From the IMG/VR virus record IMGVR_UViG_3300028610_000159, positions 1 to 50,005 of that record: a DNA stretch of 50,005 bases, one strand, 5' to 3'. Made by a program: the position numbers and the translations under genes. Positions 2,478 through 45,980 of this stretch are shown in pieces (the stretch's first letter is position 1; the number at the start of each line of letters is the position of its first letter). The DNA comes from a virus. The notes under the pieces are model-generated. The model was not told where the DNA came from. It saw nothing but the letters and a program-made list of their open reading frames with translations, and did not search any database.

Positions 2478-2554
2478 ATGAAGACTGAGACTATGAAATA
2501 TAAACCCCGAACCCGGAGCAATTCCTCTCAGTCTTCTTTCAGGTAAGGGGTTTT
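2478..2554 (+). ncRNA. Pseudoknot RNA element B
   Basis: S1 is an 11-bp perfect helix, 2480-2490 with 2526-2536 (GAAGACTGAGA/TCTCAGTCTTC). S2 is 7 bp, 2502-2508 (AAACCCC) in the S1 loop with 2547-2553 (GGGGTTT) downstream, giving an H-type pseudoknot followed by a short T run. A 22-codon frame starts at ATG 2478 and ends at 2546. The promoter at 2443-2470 would start the RNA at S1a itself. It lies just upstream of the gene at 2575. Confidence 0.7.
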
Positions 2555-5230: not shown

Positions 5231-5293
5231 TTTACATAGCACTTTTGATAATAGATTCGGAGGTGTAATATGAAGCCAATGTAAAGAAGAATA

Positions 5294-5385
5294 ATGAATA
5301 AAAGCGTACTGAGACAAGTGAAAAAGTTCAACAAAGCCCGAAACGGGGAGTTCCTAGTACGCTCTCCCCATGCTGGGCTTTTTTT
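5294..5385 (+). ncRNA. Pseudoknot RNA element D with terminator-like end
   Basis: S1 pairs 5303-5310 (AGCGTACT) with 5356-5363 (AGTACGCT). The second strand lies in the loop of S2, a two-part helix: 5333-5339/5375-5381 (AAAGCCC/GGGCTTT) and 5345-5350/5364-5369 (GGGGAG/CTCCCC). S1b abuts S2b directly. S2 plus T7 (5379-5385) is a strong intrinsic terminator. The upstream strand could therefore modulate termination by pairing with the terminator loop. Confidence 0.7.
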
Positions 5386-5398
5386 ATGTCTGGAGTGA
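5294..5398 (+). CDS. Possible 34-residue peptide spanning element D
   Basis: ATG 5294 opens a 34-codon frame (MNKSVLRQVKKFNKARNGEF, then LVRSPHAGLF) that covers the whole pseudoknot and stops just before the ribosome site of the next gene. The upstream site (AAAGAAGAATA) is mediocre. It may be a translated leader whose ribosome traffic alters the RNA fold, or a chance frame. Confidence 0.3.
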   Translation: MNKSVLRQVKKFNKARNGEFLVRSPHAGLFLCLE

Positions 5399-5401
5399 AT
5401 T

Positions 5402-5725
5402 ATGAATGATAGAGAAAAATTGATTAAGAAATTCGCTGGAGCAATAAACGAAATGAGCAGGGAGGAAGATTCTAATACGCCAGATTTCCTTTTGGCGGAG
5501 TATTTAGTATTTTGCTTGGAAGCTTTTGAGTTGGCAAGCAATAAAAGAGAGGTATGGTTCGGTGTCCACCTTGACATCTTGAACGACTGGCCGGAATTGA
5601 TTATGACTGCTATTGGTGAAGCCTCTATGTGTTGGAGCGAGACGCCCAAGGGGACTTTTGATAGTACAAGAGCACAAAAAATAGGAATAAAACTTCTCGA
5701 AGACATCAAGTCTCAGCCAAAATAA
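5402..5725 (+). CDS. Unknown protein, 107 residues
   Basis: ATG 5402 with a TGGAG site immediately downstream of element D, so its expression depends on reading through that structure. Mainly helical and acidic (EKLIKKFAGAINEMSREED, FCLEAFELASNKREVWFGV). Not recognised. Confidence 0.7.
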   Translation: MNDREKLIKKFAGAINEMSREEDSNTPDFLLAEYLVFCLEAFELASNKREVWFGVHLDILNDWPELIMTAIGEASMCWSETPKGTFDSTRAQKIGIKLLEDIKSQPK

Positions 5726-6026: not shown

Positions 6027-6128
6027 AAAACCGAGGGCAAGTAGCACAAATTCCGGTTCGGCTGGAAGAATGAAGATACTCTGACATTCACGCTATTCAA
6101 CATCCTGACAGATAGCCCTCGGTTTTTT
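6027..6128 (+). ncRNA. Structured leader element E with 12-bp closing stem
   Basis: A 12-bp perfect helix pairs 6027-6038 (AAAACCGAGGGC) with 6115-6126 and is followed by a T run to 6128. The 76-base loop can form three smaller hairpins: 6051-6056/6062-6067 around a UUCG-type loop, 6068-6072/6085-6089 (GAATG/CATTC), and 6092-6096/6112-6116 (GCTAT/ATAGC). The last overlaps the closing stem by two bases. I find no convincing S2 partner, so this is not clearly a pseudoknot. It could be a terminator or a multi-branched leader for the gene at 6157. A 23-codon frame starts at ATG 6013. Confidence 0.6.
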
Positions 6129-11774: not shown

Positions 11775-11803
11775 AAAAAGGCCCAACCATTGGGCCCTTG
11801 CTC
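11773..11803. terminator. Bidirectional terminator
   Basis: GGCCCAA (11780-11786), a 3-base loop, TTGGGCC (11790-11796). The A7 on the left becomes T7 for leftward transcription, and a weaker pyrimidine run (CTTGCTCTTTT) follows for rightward transcription. It separates the LamG gene from the leftward cluster. Confidence 0.8.
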
Positions 11804-11809
11804 TTTTAC

Positions 11810-11965
11810 TTACTTTTCAAGCGGGATTTCTCCCTTTGAAACCCTGTCAAGCCACTCAGCAAATGAGATGTTTTTAGTGCATTTAGGGGTTTTGAGGTAA
11901 TCCAGGTGAGCCTTCCGAAGACGGTTTTTCGTGGTTTCTCTTGCACTGATTGACGATTGTTTCAT
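11810..11965 (-). CDS. Small basic protein, 51 residues
   Basis: Last gene of the leftward cluster; AAGGAG lies eight bases before its ATG at 11965. Basic helical sequence (SARETTKNRLRKAHLDYLKT, then SFAEWLDRVSKGEIPLEK). Not recognised. The bidirectional terminator follows 14 bases after its stop. Confidence 0.6.
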   Translation of the reverse strand: MKQSSISARETTKNRLRKAHLDYLKTPKCTKNISFAEWLDRVSKGEIPLEK

Positions 11966-11982
11966 GTTAATTCTCCTTGAGT

Positions 11983-12174
11983 TTATATTCCTGCTGTATC
12001 GCCGATTAAATCTCTTGCTTCGTCCATCTGTTCGATATTCTGTTCCATAGCTTCTCCCTTTTCGGAGTACTGAAGGCCTTCGGGCAGATTATCAAACGCC
12101 TCCTGTTCTTCTGAAATAATATCCTCAAGCTTAAACCAAATCGACTCTAATCGAGCTCTTCTGTCTTTATTCAC
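11983..12174 (-). CDS. Acidic helical phage protein, 63 residues
   Basis: GTG start at 12174 chosen because TTGGAG lies eight bases upstream and the sequence from there (VNKDRRARLESIWFKLEDI, EEQEAFDNLPEGLQYSEKG) is a familiar acidic coiled-coil type in phages. The frame stays open back to an ATG at 12273, but the extra 33 residues look non-coding. Its start overlaps the end of the small membrane-peptide gene. Confidence 0.65.
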   Translation of the reverse strand: MNKDRRARLESIWFKLEDIISEEQEAFDNLPEGLQYSEKGEAMEQNIEQMDEARDLIGDTAGI

Positions 12175-12257
12175 GATAAATACTCCAATAAAAGTGCAAT
12201 TAGCATACCCACCACAACGGCGAGCTAGGTTAAGAATAGTTTGGTTACTAGTCGCAT
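12171..12257 (-). pseudogene. Small membrane-peptide gene with an in-frame amber codon
   Basis: ATG at 12257 has a good AAGGAT site. The frame reads MRLVTKLFLT, TAG (12225-12227), then LAVVVGMLIALLLEYLS to TGA. The TGA overlaps the next GTG start. Both halves fit one 28-residue peptide with a single membrane segment; TAG could have been TGG (Trp). TAG is used as a normal stop elsewhere in this genome, so recoding is unlikely. Confidence 0.4.
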
Positions 12258-12272
12258 GATTATCCTTTTTCA

Positions 12273-12458
12273 TTAGGCGAGTTTCATTAAGTCCTTTGCA
12301 ACAGAAATGTCGTAGGTATCTTCAAGCCAATGCCAGATATCAAATTTACTTGTTCCAATGGGGAAATGTTTCCATTCCGTATCAATGTTGTCATCCTTGT
12401 CTACAGGTATATCGCCAAGTTCCTGCCACATCTTTTTAACTTCTTTAGTGTCCTTCAT
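12273..12458 (-). CDS. Unknown acidic protein, 61 residues
   Basis: ATG at 12458 with AAGGGAAAGAATT upstream. Contains three Trp and many acidic residues (EVKKMWQELGDIPVDKDDN, FDIWHWLEDTYDISVAKD). Not recognised. Part of the leftward operon. Confidence 0.65.
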   Translation of the reverse strand: MKDTKEVKKMWQELGDIPVDKDDNIDTEWKHFPIGTSKFDIWHWLEDTYDISVAKDLMKLA

Positions 12459-12533
12459 AATTCTTTCCCTTAATTAAATTAGTTTCAGCCTTTGATTGAG
12501 TTGGTTAGCCGTGTGCATAGGCTTAGCATACCG

Positions 12534-12695
12534 TTACTTGGTTGCAGGTGGTGTTTCATTGCTATTGAATATTACTTGTGCAGCCAGATTATTACACTTA
12601 GCAAGCCCACACTTCTCAGGTCGTCTTGTACTCACAGTCTTAATTTCTGCGATTCGCCCTTTGTTTTGTTTGTGGCCATTACATCTGAATCTCAT
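12534..12695 (-). CDS. Small basic protein, 53 residues
   Basis: ATG at 12695 with GAGAGGATGTATT. Basic N-terminus (MRFRCNGHKQNKGRIAEIK) and four Cys in total (including CGLAKCNN), possibly one metal site. Not recognised. Confidence 0.55.
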   Translation of the reverse strand: MRFRCNGHKQNKGRIAEIKTVSTRRPEKCGLAKCNNLAAQVIFNSNETPPATK

Positions 12696-12723
12696 AATAC
12701 ATCCTCTCAAATAAATAAAATAG

Positions 12724-12849
12724 TTAGTCTTGTTCCTTTACATCTTTACAATCCCTGACTACACCCATACAGCCAACTTCACTACAATGACAAGGACAAT
12801 CAGCCACGCACCCATTACAACAACATTCGTAACAATTTTCATTATCCAT
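12724..12849 (-). CDS. Ten-cysteine mini-protein, metallothionein-like
   Basis: 41 residues with 10 Cys: MDNENCYECCCNGCVADCPC, then HCSEVGC and RDC. ATG at 12849 has AAAGGG six bases upstream. CC, CxC and CxxC clusters recall metallothioneins or iron/zinc-binding peptides; a cytoplasmic protein would not keep so many Cys for disulfides. Function unknown; metal binding is inference from composition. Confidence 0.6.
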   Translation of the reverse strand: MDNENCYECCCNGCVADCPCHCSEVGCMGVVRDCKDVKEQD

Positions 12850-12862
12850 TTCAAACCCTTTC

Positions 12863-12916
12863 GATAAAATAGTTACGCAAAGGCCCGGTTAAAGGCCCTT
12901 GAGTGATTATTTTATC
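12863..12916. other. Nested intercistronic stem-loop
   Basis: A 9-bp perfect A/T-rich stem (12863-12871 with 12908-12916) encloses an inner imperfect AAGGGCC/GGGCCTT hairpin (12879-12900). It includes the stop codon of the methyltransferase-like gene. It may stabilise or process the leftward mRNA; there is no clean T run for termination in either direction. Confidence 0.45.
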
Positions 12917-13502
12917 CCCATTGCTCAGCCATAGCGTCAGCGAAACCTTGACAAATTATCGATCTCTTTTTACCCCTGTCTTTTGATGGTGACATTCTGT
13001 GTATTCTCGCTTCCCGTCCCTCTACGATGTTTGTTGGTTCAAGTAGCGGCAAGCCCTTGATCCTTAAACAGGTTGCTTTTGTCTCCCCGTGCCCGAATTG
13101 CCAAGGCTGGATAATTTGATCGGGCTTGTACTCTATAATTTCTTGGGCATATCTGTGCATTATTGGACTCTCTGCAACCACTTTATCGCAAGGCGCGTCG
13201 AATAAATCTTTAAAAAATATAGACCCTGCATACATTTTGCCCCATCTGTCATAGTTTTTGTGCCCGTCCGGGAGATAGAGCCATCTTACGCCTGAGTTAC
13301 ACGTATATGTGCAAGGGGGGAACATCAATATCATATCCCACCTCTGACTATATGCCAGTTTAACAGCGTCCCCGATAATGTGCGGTCCCGGCGATTCAGT
13401 CGGCAACAAGTCACAACTAATCGCATCATGGCCTTTAGCAATAAACGCATCACGGACACGGCCTGAGAATTCACAAGGCACGAAGACTTTCATCTTACGC
13501 AT
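12912..13502 (-). CDS. Methyltransferase-like phage protein
   Basis: 196 residues from ATG 13502; an ATG at 13493 would match the family start (MKVFVPCEFSGRVRDAFIA). AFIAKGHDAISCDLLPTESP has the look of a Rossmann AdoMet-binding start, and MILMFPPCTYTCNSGVRW has the PPC-type motif IV position. GHGETKATCLRIKGLPLL and RIHRMSPSKDRG complete a widespread phage family annotated as cytosine-methylase-like. Whether it methylates DNA is unknown. First large gene of the leftward operon, coupled to the gene upstream. Confidence 0.65.
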   Translation of the reverse strand: MRKMKVFVPCEFSGRVRDAFIAKGHDAISCDLLPTESPGPHIIGDAVKLAYSQRWDMILMFPPCTYTCNSGVRWLYLPDGHKNYDRWGKMYAGSIFFKDLFDAPCDKVVAESPIMHRYAQEIIEYKPDQIIQPWQFGHGETKATCLRIKGLPLLEPTNIVEGREARIHRMSPSKDRGKKRSIICQGFADAMAEQWG

Positions 13503-13677
13503 ACTTTAACTCCCTGAGATTAGCATAATAGGCCTTAGCTTCGCACACAGCAGCATCGGCGACATTCTCAAGGGCTTTACCGTCAATCTCAAACAAGGCC
13601 GACACCATTTGACTGATGGTTGTGGAGTCAACACCGGAAAGATACATTTCTTTATAGTATGCAATTGCTGTTTCCAT
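13495..13677 (-). CDS. Small helical protein, 60 residues
   Basis: First gene after the leftward promoter; ATTGGAGATGTGAATC precedes ATG at 13677. Helical and mildly acidic (METAIAYYKEMYLSGVDSTT). Overlaps the methyltransferase-like start. Not recognised; its first position suggests an immediate-early product. Confidence 0.6.
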   Translation of the reverse strand: METAIAYYKEMYLSGVDSTTISQMVSALFEIDGKALENVADAAVCEAKAYYANLRELKYA

Positions 13678-13719
13678 GATTCACATCTCCAATAAAATAA
13701 CGATTAACATTACAAATAG

Positions 13720-13747
13720 AATATAACACAGATTCCTAATTTGTCAA
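13720..13747 (-). promoter_or_regulatory. Leftward sigma70 promoter
   Basis: Read on the minus strand: TTGACA (13747-13742), 16 bases, TATATT (13725-13720). It drives the leftward cluster and stands back-to-back with the late promoter 40 bp away. Confidence 0.75.
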
Positions 13748-13787
13748 TAGAAAAAATAGAATAATATTAAAATAAAAGAAAAAGAAC

Positions 13788-13816
13788 TTGACAGCGCATA
13801 CTCAACCTGCTATAAT
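13788..13816 (+). promoter_or_regulatory. Perfect consensus late-operon promoter
   Basis: TTGACA (13788-13793), exactly 17 bases, TATAAT (13811-13816). No gene-internal promoter of this strength is seen in the following 30 kb, so host sigma70 RNA polymerase could read the whole virion region from here unless a regulator blocks it. Confidence 0.9.
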
Positions 13817-13869
13817 ACCCATTAAATAAAGAAACGAACTGGAAACTATTTTCAATCGTATGCGCTTAA

Positions 13870-14022
13870 ATGGACACACTCGGAGAAATAATTGAAGACA
13901 AAGCCAAGGATGAAATGGACGAGCATATCAAAGAACTGAACAGACTGGCTTTACTAATCGAACCGAATCCACGTATATTTGAACTATTACAGGAACTAAC
14001 GGGGATAATAGATAATGGCTGA
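13870..14022 (+). CDS. Small acidic protein before terminase, 50 residues
   Basis: ATG 13870 is the first start after the late promoter; a stop lies directly upstream in frame and no clear ribosome site is seen. Helical acidic sequence (MDTLGEIIEDKAKDEMDEHI). It overlaps the small terminase start by eight bases, so it may prime its translation. Not recognised. Confidence 0.5.
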   Translation: MDTLGEIIEDKAKDEMDEHIKELNRLALLIEPNPRIFELLQELTGIIDNG

Positions 14023-44136: not shown

Positions 44137-44256
44137 TTTCTGCATGTTTGTTAAATTTATTTTAACTCAAATCCCCATTTCCCGCCCGCAAACCATGTCC
44201 AGATATGCGCCTCTGAGTCCATTCGTGCTATTCTGGGATATATTCTGAAAAAGAAT

Positions 44257-44284
44257 TTGACATTCGCCCAATCTGTGTTAAGCT
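44257..44284 (+). promoter_or_regulatory. Promoter of the early region
   Basis: TTGACA (44257-44262), 16 bases, TAAGCT (44279-44284). Transcription would begin near 44291, at the ATG (44292) of pseudoknot element G. It shares AAGAATTTGAC with the promoter at 2443. Confidence 0.7.
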
Positions 44285-44291
44285 ATGAATA

Positions 44292-44387
44292 ATGCTTTAC
44301 TCGACATTGACATCAAGTTCCGATAAACCAAAACAAGCCCCTGCTTTGCGCTCAGTTAATGTCGAGTTCACCGGGCCGAGCAGGGGC
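44292..44387 (+). ncRNA. Pseudoknot RNA element G
   Basis: S1: 44299-44311 (ACTCGACATTGAC) with 44355-44367 (GTTAATGTCGAGT), 13 bp with one G-U. S2: 44337-44345 (GCCCCTGCT) in the S1 loop with 44379-44387 (AGCAGGGGC) downstream, 9 bp perfect. One of the clearest of the set: two long helices in H-type order. It lies between a promoter and the GHKL-ATPase gene. It is followed by the ribosome site AAGGGAAAGAG, which is free in the fold. Confidence 0.75.
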
Positions 44388-44411
44388 GATATTGAAGGGA
44401 AAGAGATATGA
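44292..44411 (+). CDS. Possible 39-residue peptide spanning element G
   Basis: A 39-codon frame from ATG 44292 covers the pseudoknot and ends in an ATGA overlap with the GHKL gene, as a coupled leader would. There is no ribosome site before the ATG; the predicted RNA would start almost at the ATG (leaderless). The peptide is Ser/Pro-rich and not recognised. Confidence 0.3.
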   Translation: MLYSTLTSSSDKPKQAPALRSVNVEFTGPSRGDIEGKEI

Positions 44412-45679
44412 AGTGGATTAAATGTTCCAATAAAATAGAGATAGAGCCAAACGCTTTCAAACTGATAGGGGCGTGTACTAAAAGAGAGGATGAGTCCAAG
44501 ATAGGCTTCTTTGGCTCTGGTTTGAAGTATGCTCTTGCCGTGTTTTTGAGGAATGGCATTGACATCAAAGTATTTGCAGGCAAGCAAGAGATTTCAATAG
44601 GTTGCGTTACGGACAGGCTGAGAGATCAAGAATTTGATGTAATTACTATAGATGGCGACAAAACATCCATGACAACCTCTATGGGACCTAAATGGGAACC
44701 GTGGCAGGCTATACGGGAAGTCTATTGTAACGCATTAGACGAAGGAGGGACCGCCAAAGTAGGCACATGCGAACCTTGTGGTATAGGGGGCGAAACTAAT
44801 ATCTTTATAAGCGCAGAGCATGAAGAAGTCGCTGAGGTTACAGATAATTGGGATAAATACTTTAGCTTCAACCGCGTAGCTTTAGCTGAGTGTGATCATG
44901 GTGCAATCTACGATAGGCTCTATGGTACCGTTTACCGCAAAGGTATTAGATGCGTAAAAGATGATATTACACGTACGCTGTTTGATTACGAAACGTCTAA
45001 AGTAGAACTTAACGAGTCCAGAGTCATAGATAGTCCGTACAGTTTGCCTTTGTATATGTGTAGGGTTCTCGCCAAGAGTGCAGACCAGAGTGTAATTGAC
45101 AAAATCGTTAAAGACAGGGTATCTAAAGAATTCCAAGCAGATTGGGACTATTCTTCGATTGAGTTGAATGGTGAGTGGTTGAAATACTTTGAAGGAAAAA
45201 TTCTCATACCTGAATCTTTCGCAGGACACTTTAGCGTATTAGTAGAGGACGAAAACTCTGTTATTATTAAAAGAAGTCTCATTCTGAAATTGCAAAAGAC
45301 ATTTGGCAAAGAAAAGTTTCGTGCTGTAATGTCAGGTTATTGTGCCGGAAGCGACTATGTAGAATCGAAACCTGACAGGAAACGAGATTACTTACTGAAA
45401 GAAGCAAAGAGTTTTCTGGATCAAGTAGGCTTAAATTGTACGTATGAGTGCAAGATAGTTTCATTTTCATCTAAGAAAATCATTGGCGCAGCCCATGAAG
45501 GTTTAATCTTATTATCTGAAACGCTGTTCGATAAAGGGAAACGGCAAATTGTTCTGGTTATCATGGAAGAATGGGCACATCTTGAGTCGGGCAAAGGAGA
45601 CGAGACGAGAGACTTTCAAAACTTCCTCATGGAACAAATGCTGACCTTACTTGAAAATCAACATGGAGTATTCTTGTAG
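44408..45679 (+). CDS. GHKL-type ATPase, apparently permuted, with EExxH C-terminus
   Basis: 423 residues. GFFGSGLKYALAVFLRNG (about 33-50) resembles the G2 lid of GHKL (gyrase/Hsp90/MutL) ATPases. IREVYCNALDEGG (about 102-114) resembles the N-box (E...N-A-x-D/E). In classical GHKL proteins the N-box comes first, so the order here is reversed. The C-terminus has VIMEEWAHLESGKGDETRDF, where family metalloprotease-like ends would carry an HExxH-type motif. Phage relatives of this architecture exist, but their function is unknown. First gene after pseudoknot G. Confidence 0.6.
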   Translation: MKWIKCSNKIEIEPNAFKLIGACTKREDESKIGFFGSGLKYALAVFLRNGIDIKVFAGKQEISIGCVTDRLRDQEFDVITIDGDKTSMTTSMGPKWEPWQAIREVYCNALDEGGTAKVGTCEPCGIGGETNIFISAEHEEVAEVTDNWDKYFSFNRVALAECDHGAIYDRLYGTVYRKGIRCVKDDITRTLFDYETSKVELNESRVIDSPYSLPLYMCRVLAKSADQSVIDKIVKDRVSKEFQADWDYSSIELNGEWLKYFEGKILIPESFAGHFSVLVEDENSVIIKRSLILKLQKTFGKEKFRAVMSGYCAGSDYVESKPDRKRDYLLKEAKSFLDQVGLNCTYECKIVSFSSKKIIGAAHEGLILLSETLFDKGKRQIVLVIMEEWAHLESGKGDETRDFQNFLMEQMLTLLENQHGVFL

Positions 45680-45691
45680 GAGAATAATAAT

Positions 45692-45809
45692 ATGTACGGC
45701 ATAAGACATTCATTTCTGGAAACTCTCGTCCGAGAGGTCTCCCTCCTTTTTCAAAACCAATGCAATGTCAAGGCCCCGATCCGGTCTTATGCCGACTGCG
45801 GATCGGGGC
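45692..45809 (+). ncRNA. Pseudoknot RNA element H
   Basis: S1: 45697-45707 (CGGCATAAGAC) with 45784-45794 (GTCTTATGCCG), 11 bp perfect. S2: 45773-45783 (GCCCCGATCCG) with 45799-45809 (CGGATCGGGGC), 11 bp perfect. S2a ends exactly where S1b begins, so the helices can stack coaxially. An extra hairpin CTCTC/GAGAG (45723-45736) sits in the first loop. The strongest case in the set. It lies between the GHKL gene and a small gene at 45828; no promoter is evident. Confidence 0.8.
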
Positions 45810-45853
45810 TACTTTATTGGAGATATTATGCAAACAATACAAGTAACAGATAA
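45692..45853 (+). CDS. Possible 53-residue protein spanning element H
   Basis: ATG 45692 has a good AGGAGA site eight bases upstream, the best of any frame overlapping a pseudoknot. The frame covers the whole element and ends 26 bases inside the next gene. Sequence begins MYGIRHSFLETLVREVSLLF; not recognised. Either a real peptide or a leader whose translation would unfold the RNA. Confidence 0.4.
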   Translation: MYGIRHSFLETLVREVSLLFQNQCNVKAPIRSYADCGSGLLYWRYYANNTSNR

Positions 45854-45980
45854 ACGACACGAACTAATTACAGCCGAGGCGAAACGACAGGGGATCACTC
45901 GTAGAAAGTTGGTATCAAATTTCACCTCTTCTCTCACTACCCGTAAAAGTTTGAAAAAGTGGCTCCGTGAATACTCGTAA
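45828..45980 (+). CDS. Small basic protein, 50 residues, HTH-like
   Basis: TTGGAGATATT before ATG 45828. Basic helices (QTIQVTDKRHELITAEAKRQ, ITRRKLVSNFTSSLTTRKSL) could form a ribbon-helix-helix or HTH unit: a short strand then two helices. DNA binding is inference. It overlaps the next small gene. Confidence 0.55.
   Translation: MQTIQVTDKRHELITAEAKRQGITRRKLVSNFTSSLTTRKSLKKWLREYS

Follow-up and report, generated by a model that had tools for sequence, protein, structure and literature searches.

Interlocked helices upstream of a gene for a small basic protein

The preliminary description of a 50,005-nucleotide stretch of viral DNA (IMG/VR record IMGVR_UViG_3300028610_000159; hereafter, the window) pointed to two perfect 11-bp helices at positions 45697-45809 that interlock with no spacer between them, which raises the question of whether this arrangement is accidental or belongs to an RNA with a function, and what that function might be. 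Both helices, S1 and S2, occur exactly where they had been placed: their strands follow the order S1a-S2a-S1b-S2b, S1b adjoins S2a directly, complementarity is 100% in both 11-nt helices, and one additional G.U pair extends S2 to 12 pairs in total (45772-45810; Table 1). The spacer L1 can form, besides a hairpin of its own, a stem GACATT../..AATGTC that shares positions 45705-45707 with S1a. The element lies between two genes: one of 423 aa, whose end is 17 nt upstream, and one for a basic 50-aa protein, whose ATG follows after 17-18 nt; all clearly coding frames nearby lie on the + strand. An upstream open frame (uORF), the ATG of which is located 5 nt upstream of S1a (the codon ends 2 nt before it), crosses the whole element and overlaps the start of the gene by 26 nt. 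Sequence and family searches retrieved no known relatives and no informative family match for the 50-aa protein, and DNA and protein searches with the region and gene of the element found nothing among annotated phages. The 423-aa protein belongs to phrog_8203, a family with no assigned function; its homologues are <30% identical, and among its relatives one is annotated as HATPase and another as metallopeptidase. Elsewhere in the window, a region of about 2.2 kb (11775-14014) contains no + strand ORF of at least 90 aa, and strong sigma-70-like promoters are found on both strands near 13740-13790.

Table 1. Coordinates of the interlocked element, of the other leaders in the window, and of related features in other phages.
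Feature	Position	Strand	Remarks
S1a (helix 1, 5' arm)	45697-45707	+	CGGCATAAGAC; p < 0.0005 against shuffled 5' regions
S1b (helix 1, 3' arm)	45784-45794	+	GTCTTATGCCG; within the 15-nt loop of hairpin S2
S2a (hairpin S2, 5' arm)	45772-45783	+	11-nt perfect part 45773-45783 GCCCCGATCCG; matched by covariance model R2
S2b (hairpin S2, 3' arm)	45799-45810	+	11-nt perfect part 45799-45809 CGGATCGGGGC; matched by R2
L1 spacer	45708-45771	+	own hairpin 45723-45736 (CTCTC GTCC GAGAG)
L3 strand, needed to span S1 in a full pseudoknot	45795-45798	+	4 nt
uORF of the element, 53 codons	45692-45853	+	SD AGGAG at 45678-45682; putative translation
Gene behind the leader, basic 50-aa protein	45828-45980	+	SD GGAG at 45819-45822
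Second leader, same layout	44299-44387	+	S1 44299-44311/44355-44367; S2 44337-44346/44378-44387; perfect-repeat cores 44299-44308/44358-44367 (10 bp) and 44337-44345/44379-44387 (9 bp); before the 423-aa gene 44408-45679
uORF of the second leader, 39 codons	44292-44411	+	stop overlaps gene start (ATGA)
Third leader	2480-2553	+	S1 2480-2490/2526-2536; S2 2502-2508/2547-2553; promoter TTGACT-TATATT; uORF 2478-2546; gene begins at GTG 2575
Fourth leader	5303-5381	+	S1 5303-5311/5355-5363; S2 5333-5340/5374-5381; model match E = 7e-5; uORF 5294-5398; gene begins 5402
Four-residue frame	window 5270-5284		strong SD
Four-residue frame	L009, about 2060-2045	-	strong SD
Four-residue frame	L041 6795-6809		7 nt after -10 box
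int-alpA RNA before HNH gene	L167:7895-7964	+
int-alpA RNA before HNH gene	L170:15640-15572	-
int-alpA RNA before HNH gene	L164:18093-18023	-
int-alpA RNA before HNH gene	L173:527-595	+
G+C-rich pre-SD hairpin	L012:4655-4772
G+C-rich pre-SD hairpin	L164:6348-6245	-
G+C-rich pre-SD hairpin	L168:8779-8833
G+C-rich pre-SD hairpin	L173:12784-12865

Interlocking exceeds chance expectation

A census of perfect inverted repeats across the 50,005-base window (at least 9 bp, arms within 150 nt; n = 33) revealed only two interlocked pairs in which both helices reach at least 9 bp, namely 45697-45809 (11+11) and 44299-44387 (10+9). Scored by uninterrupted stacking energy together with loop limits, they attain summed values of -49.2 and -45.0, respectively; the top-scoring sites of 40 Markov-shuffled 50-kb copies, one per copy, range from -30.3 to -38.6. 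The initial view that a chance origin of the interlocked helices is very unlikely is borne out, -49.2 lying beyond the best sites of all 40 shuffled windows. A permissive score allowing G.U pairs and mismatches did not separate these two sites from the shuffles, as uninterrupted stacking does, and was dropped because long imperfect stems score well under it. Ordinary fold prediction is blind to interlocking; it returned the S2 hairpin together with structure within the spacer (z = -4.1). The window also contains a perfect 12-bp inverted repeat (AAAACCGAGGGC, 6027-6126) with arms 76 nt apart, which is not interlocked with a second strong helix.

A family of leader RNAs in related phages

Far from being a single curiosity, the element is one of about 20 leader RNAs common to related uncultured phages. 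We gathered these relatives by way of the head-tail connector, a 177-aa early protein, a tail protein, and the major head protein, and read their contigs in whole. Phages having only the 177-aa protein in common yielded no convincing leaders, and no relatives turned up in two scans of bacterial genomes. Two of the leader-bearing phages, G001 and G002, have few structural genes in common with the window, and the layout is therefore not confined to one close lineage.

The excess of such structures before genes was measured on 1121 gene starts from 22 contigs belonging to this phage group, all with an SD and without a long ORF across the upstream region, counting interlocked helices that end 8-32 nt before the start and using dinucleotide shuffles of the same regions as control. 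At scores of -30 or better we counted 28 sites versus 2.7 expected, at -35 12 versus 0.1, and at -40 10 versus 0, with thresholds and loop limits tuned on the first members, against which the model and shuffle tests guard partly. When an ATG at S1a was also required, 18 sites were observed versus 0.0 in the shuffles at -30. The 2.7 sites expected at -30 imply that some of the weaker listed leaders are probably due to chance. The 331 starts from five other phage contigs showed no excess (4 versus 3.5 expected).

The usual order of parts is a sigma-70-like promoter, the uORF ATG, S1a (7-15 nt), an often A-rich spacer (about 11-40 nt), the 5' arm of S2, S1b in the apical loop, the 3' arm, often a U-run, the SD, and the gene. 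In other words, the apical loop of S2, just upstream of the SD, is complementary over 7-15 nt to S1a, which begins at the uORF ATG. The genes behind the leaders are unrelated, and stems, loops, and spacers share little sequence; S1a and S1b vary between leaders even inside one phage. Three further leaders are located in the window, the nearest one 1.4 kb upstream of the element, where a possible -10 box (TTGACA-N16-TAAGCT) precedes ATG 44292 by 7 nt. Directly before the promoter at 2443, a strong hairpin GCCGGGCGGAGAT/GTTTCCGTCCGGC followed by ATTTATTTTTAAAAAAG at 2387-2422 is a likely terminator.

In 9 of 21 leaders the uORF stop falls between -8 and +4 nt relative to the gene start, versus 8.8% of comparable ATGs (p = 3e-5), and a U-run follows S2 in about half of the leaders (11 of 21). 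The uORF peptides have no family match and vary among members, and an ATG is absent from L003 and some others. Several uORFs begin 6-7 nt past a -10 box (44292 and 2478 in the window, L009 3810(-), L171 11121(-), L166 11708, L041, and L175) and are possibly leaderless. Frameshifting from uORF into gene was set aside because the two frames stand in no constant relation. Four-residue frames (MKPM*, MRSR*, and MKVD*) occur ahead of S1a in three leaders. Within this family the element at 45697-45809 is atypical: its spacer measures about 65 nt, promoter matches directly upstream are only weak, its uORF stops 26 nt past the gene ATG and hence outside the interval above, and no real U-run follows S2. 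Viewed as an intrinsic terminator, it has a strong stem (12 pairs), a 15-nt loop, and the tail ACTTTATTGG, clear U-runs being found only in other members. Several phages of the group also carry G+C-rich hairpins, alike between phages and without convincing S1, directly before the SD of large structural-protein genes (with MKK.. starts, signal-peptide-like).

A homologous pair retains both helices while the bases change

The preliminary description had called for a compensatory comparison in homologous phages. No homologue of the 45697-45809 leader itself was found, but related leaders do hold both helices as bases change. Two homologous leaders that precede different genes, L171 (15836-15730, minus) and L007 (418-318, minus), keep S1 with two double compensatory and two one-sided changes, one pair being present in only one leader; S2 is kept as well, with all 15 pairs intact despite five one-sided changes. 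This amounts to two double compensatory and seven one-sided changes with one broken pair in 23, an indication rather than a full covariation test since only two sequences are compared. When the partners were slid as a control, at most 54% of cells paired, versus 97.8% in the true register; this sliding control is the useful one, a shuffle control being uninformative with two sequences. Retention of both helices under base change supports an action at the RNA level. At the start of the G002 contig (L007:1-63), a 23-nt perfect inverted repeat AGCAAAACGCTATAAACTGGTTC is possibly an assembly fold-back at the contig end.

When a covariance model built from this pair for S2 only (R1) was run against 1.35 Mb, the best matches after the pair itself were mostly other leaders already identified. 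A second model, R2, was built from six leaders of other phages, none from the window, and likewise holds S2 and not S1. It matched the window twice, at 5298-5404 (E = 7e-5) and at 45729-45830 (E = 0.027); the latter is the element under study, with S2 and gene start aligned, at a modest score (E = 0.74 in 1.35 Mb). Across the 1.35 Mb, interlocked leaders account for 10 of 14 matches, seeds and the duplicate L180 excluded; the matches L009:9580-9470 and L165:11534-11447 are not convincing leaders. S1, which lies outside the model, is significant against shuffled 5' regions in most leader matches: p is below 0.0005 for the element (11 bp), L173, L167, L188(-), and L178, between 0.0005 and 0.003 for L166(+), L193, L171 (11132-11021), L188(+), L030, and L007, and 0.02-0.03 for the window leader at 5303, L009 (2026-1918), and L171 (15836). 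The test is void for L171(+) and L166(-), where the script took a different hairpin.

A continuous rod is unlikely

The two helices had been proposed to stack end to end into a 22-bp coaxial rod, which their geometry does not support. Spanning 11 bp of A-form RNA takes a computed 31.5 A, about five phosphate steps, and the 4-nt L3 is too short for this, so that 1-2 terminal bp must open in the element. In its relatives this strand comprises only 0-3 nt for helices of 7-15 bp (0 in L188, with a 13-bp S1; 1 in L171/L007; 2-3 in L193 and L166), and therefore two full helices cannot generally coexist. In the leader at 5303-5381, an inner S2 stem (5345-5350/5364-5369) abuts S1b. Several members of the family are thus unable to form S1 and S2 both in full. 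Of the original interpretation, real and interlocked RNA-level helices remain, whereas conservation of a rigid 22-bp rod by the family is unlikely, and a pseudoknot formed only in part, or a switch in which S1 and full S2 alternate, is more likely.

A possible ribosome-controlled switch and its alternatives

The explanation that we favour, and to which we give an even chance, is that the element is a cis-acting leader RNA of the 50-aa gene at 45828, working as a switch between S1 and S2 under the control of the ribosome that translates the uORF. The uORF ATG and S1a would emerge first in the transcript. A prompt ribosome would sit on S1a, traverse S2a, hold S2 open, and terminate near the gene's own start, in which case the gene would be transcribed and translated. 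If no ribosome has arrived by the time S1b appears, S1 would close over the uORF start and S2 would fold as geometry permits, producing a full or partial pseudoknot; transcription would then end at the U-run where there is one, and where there is none, as at 45697-45809, the gene would be poorly initiated. The computed basis of this scheme consists of the helices, the family, the retention of the helices in the homologous pair, the position before gene starts, and the overrepresentation of uORF stops at gene starts; we infer uORF translation, the on/off assignment, and termination.

Alternatively, although this seems rather unlikely, S1 may be an antiterminator. S1b is placed at the nucleation site of S2, and S1 would trap S2a in a closed loop while RNA polymerase holds the 3' end, so that S2 cannot wind and the gene is ON, until a ribosome, a protein, or an RNA on S1a frees S2 and turns the gene OFF. 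S1b is indeed synthesised before S2b, S1 and full S2 are mutually exclusive in several members owing to an L3 of 0-4 nt or to an inner S2 stem beside S1b, and U-runs follow S2 in about half of the leaders. The order of synthesis and the steric exclusion agree with this model as well as they do with the ribosome-controlled switch, but it accounts less well for the uORF: by itself it does not explain why uORFs stop at the gene start. In addition, neither the element nor 44299-44387 has a good U-run.

It is decidedly unlikely that a stable pseudoknot serves as a binding site for a phage or host protein, or as a nuclease shield for the 5' part of the message. The large stability and the proximity of S1a to the predicted transcript start in many members would suit this role, and a precedent exists in the gene 32 operator of phage T4, a 5'-terminal pseudoknot in the leader, upstream of the SD and start codon, to which gp32 binds (PMC535899). 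That operator is about 28 nt long and is bound by the gene's own ssDNA-binding protein with UUAAA repeats, whereas the element spans about 110 nt, has a uORF running through the structure, and belongs to a family with unrelated genes. Given these unrelated genes and the little sequence common to stems, loops, and spacers, no common protein site is apparent, and the link with the uORF stays unexplained.

A trans-acting small RNA, ending at S2 and pairing through S1a or the loop with other leaders, is very improbable. A terminator-like S2 with a U-run in about half of the members would agree with it, as would the IsrK-orf45-anrP system of Gifsy-1, where a terminated phage RNA coexists with a read-through message carrying a coupled short ORF; there, as in P4 CI RNA/seqA, a terminator leader, a read-through message, complementary segments, and short-ORF translation leading to translation of the gene are found together (PMC4825925). 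In those systems, however, the regulators are separate trans RNAs with sequences unrelated to the element (no Rfam match in the window), and S1a and S1b differ between the leaders, even within one phage, so that each fits its own partner best. Both the T4 and the IsrK/P4 systems are to be taken as functional analogies only.

Chance complementarity within a real short coding sequence is scarcely credible and, for the whole family, already contradicted: the element does lie inside an open frame and any 50 kb contains many weak interlocked pairs, but the shuffle scores, the enrichment at gene starts, the R2 match, and the significance of S1 speak against it, as do uORF peptides that differ between members and have no family match. 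Among other RNA types, HDV-like, twister, and pistol ribozymes misfit in helix order and size and gave no Rfam match, and no tandem repeats as in type III toxin-antitoxin RNA were seen.

Relation to known leader RNAs

The element matches no Rfam family, and the window as a whole gave no relevant match at gathering scores. The leader of the ColIb-P9 replication gene repZ combines, much as we propose here, a leader ORF (repY), long-range loop pairing into a pseudoknot, and coupling to the gene downstream; that gene, however, is a plasmid one, its translation is activated by the pairing, and an antisense RNA takes part. A literature search found no description of the present leader layout, which is weak evidence since subscription papers are largely outside its coverage. 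Structured leader RNAs are usually discovered via sequence conservation; as this layout is kept while the stems diverge almost completely, the family would tend to escape comparative searches of the kind on which Rfam is built. It is quite possible, if somewhat short of probable, that these leaders constitute an undescribed class of phage switch, in which the 5' segment of a transcript pairs with the loop of its own terminator-like hairpin, ribosome loading on a short ORF races folding, and the gene is expressed solely from transcripts that are translated from the outset, one phage group reusing the layout before unrelated genes with little sequence in common. The family predicts a testable switch: over roughly the first 100 nt of a phage message, RNA folding, transcription, and translation would be linked to one another.

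The nearest topology is that of int-alpA RNA (RF02996), in which an outer helix near the transcript start encloses the 5' strand of a pseudoknot, with the 3' strand downstream followed by SD and gene; the element shares this S1/S2 topology, which alone does not establish membership. int-alpA RNA has a conserved core (CUAG...CGAAAAG), two inner hairpins, and a short pseudoknot of 5-7 bp, whereas the element is without the core, possesses a long S2 hairpin, and scores below Rfam cut-offs. At the gathering score of 35.8 bits no int-alpA match was detected in the window, and none at E up to 5 for 44240-45900. The core (U)AGG..CC.GAAAAG.C is likewise absent from the window and is present in four HNH leaders of related phages. 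In these phages, genuine int-alpA RNAs (42-52 bits) start at a predicted promoter and directly precede HNH-endonuclease-like genes. int-alpA RNA, which occurs in these phages too and shares the topology of the leaders, may represent a single branch, conserved in sequence, of a wider leader architecture. The HNH context of these RNAs differs from the int and alpA gene context.
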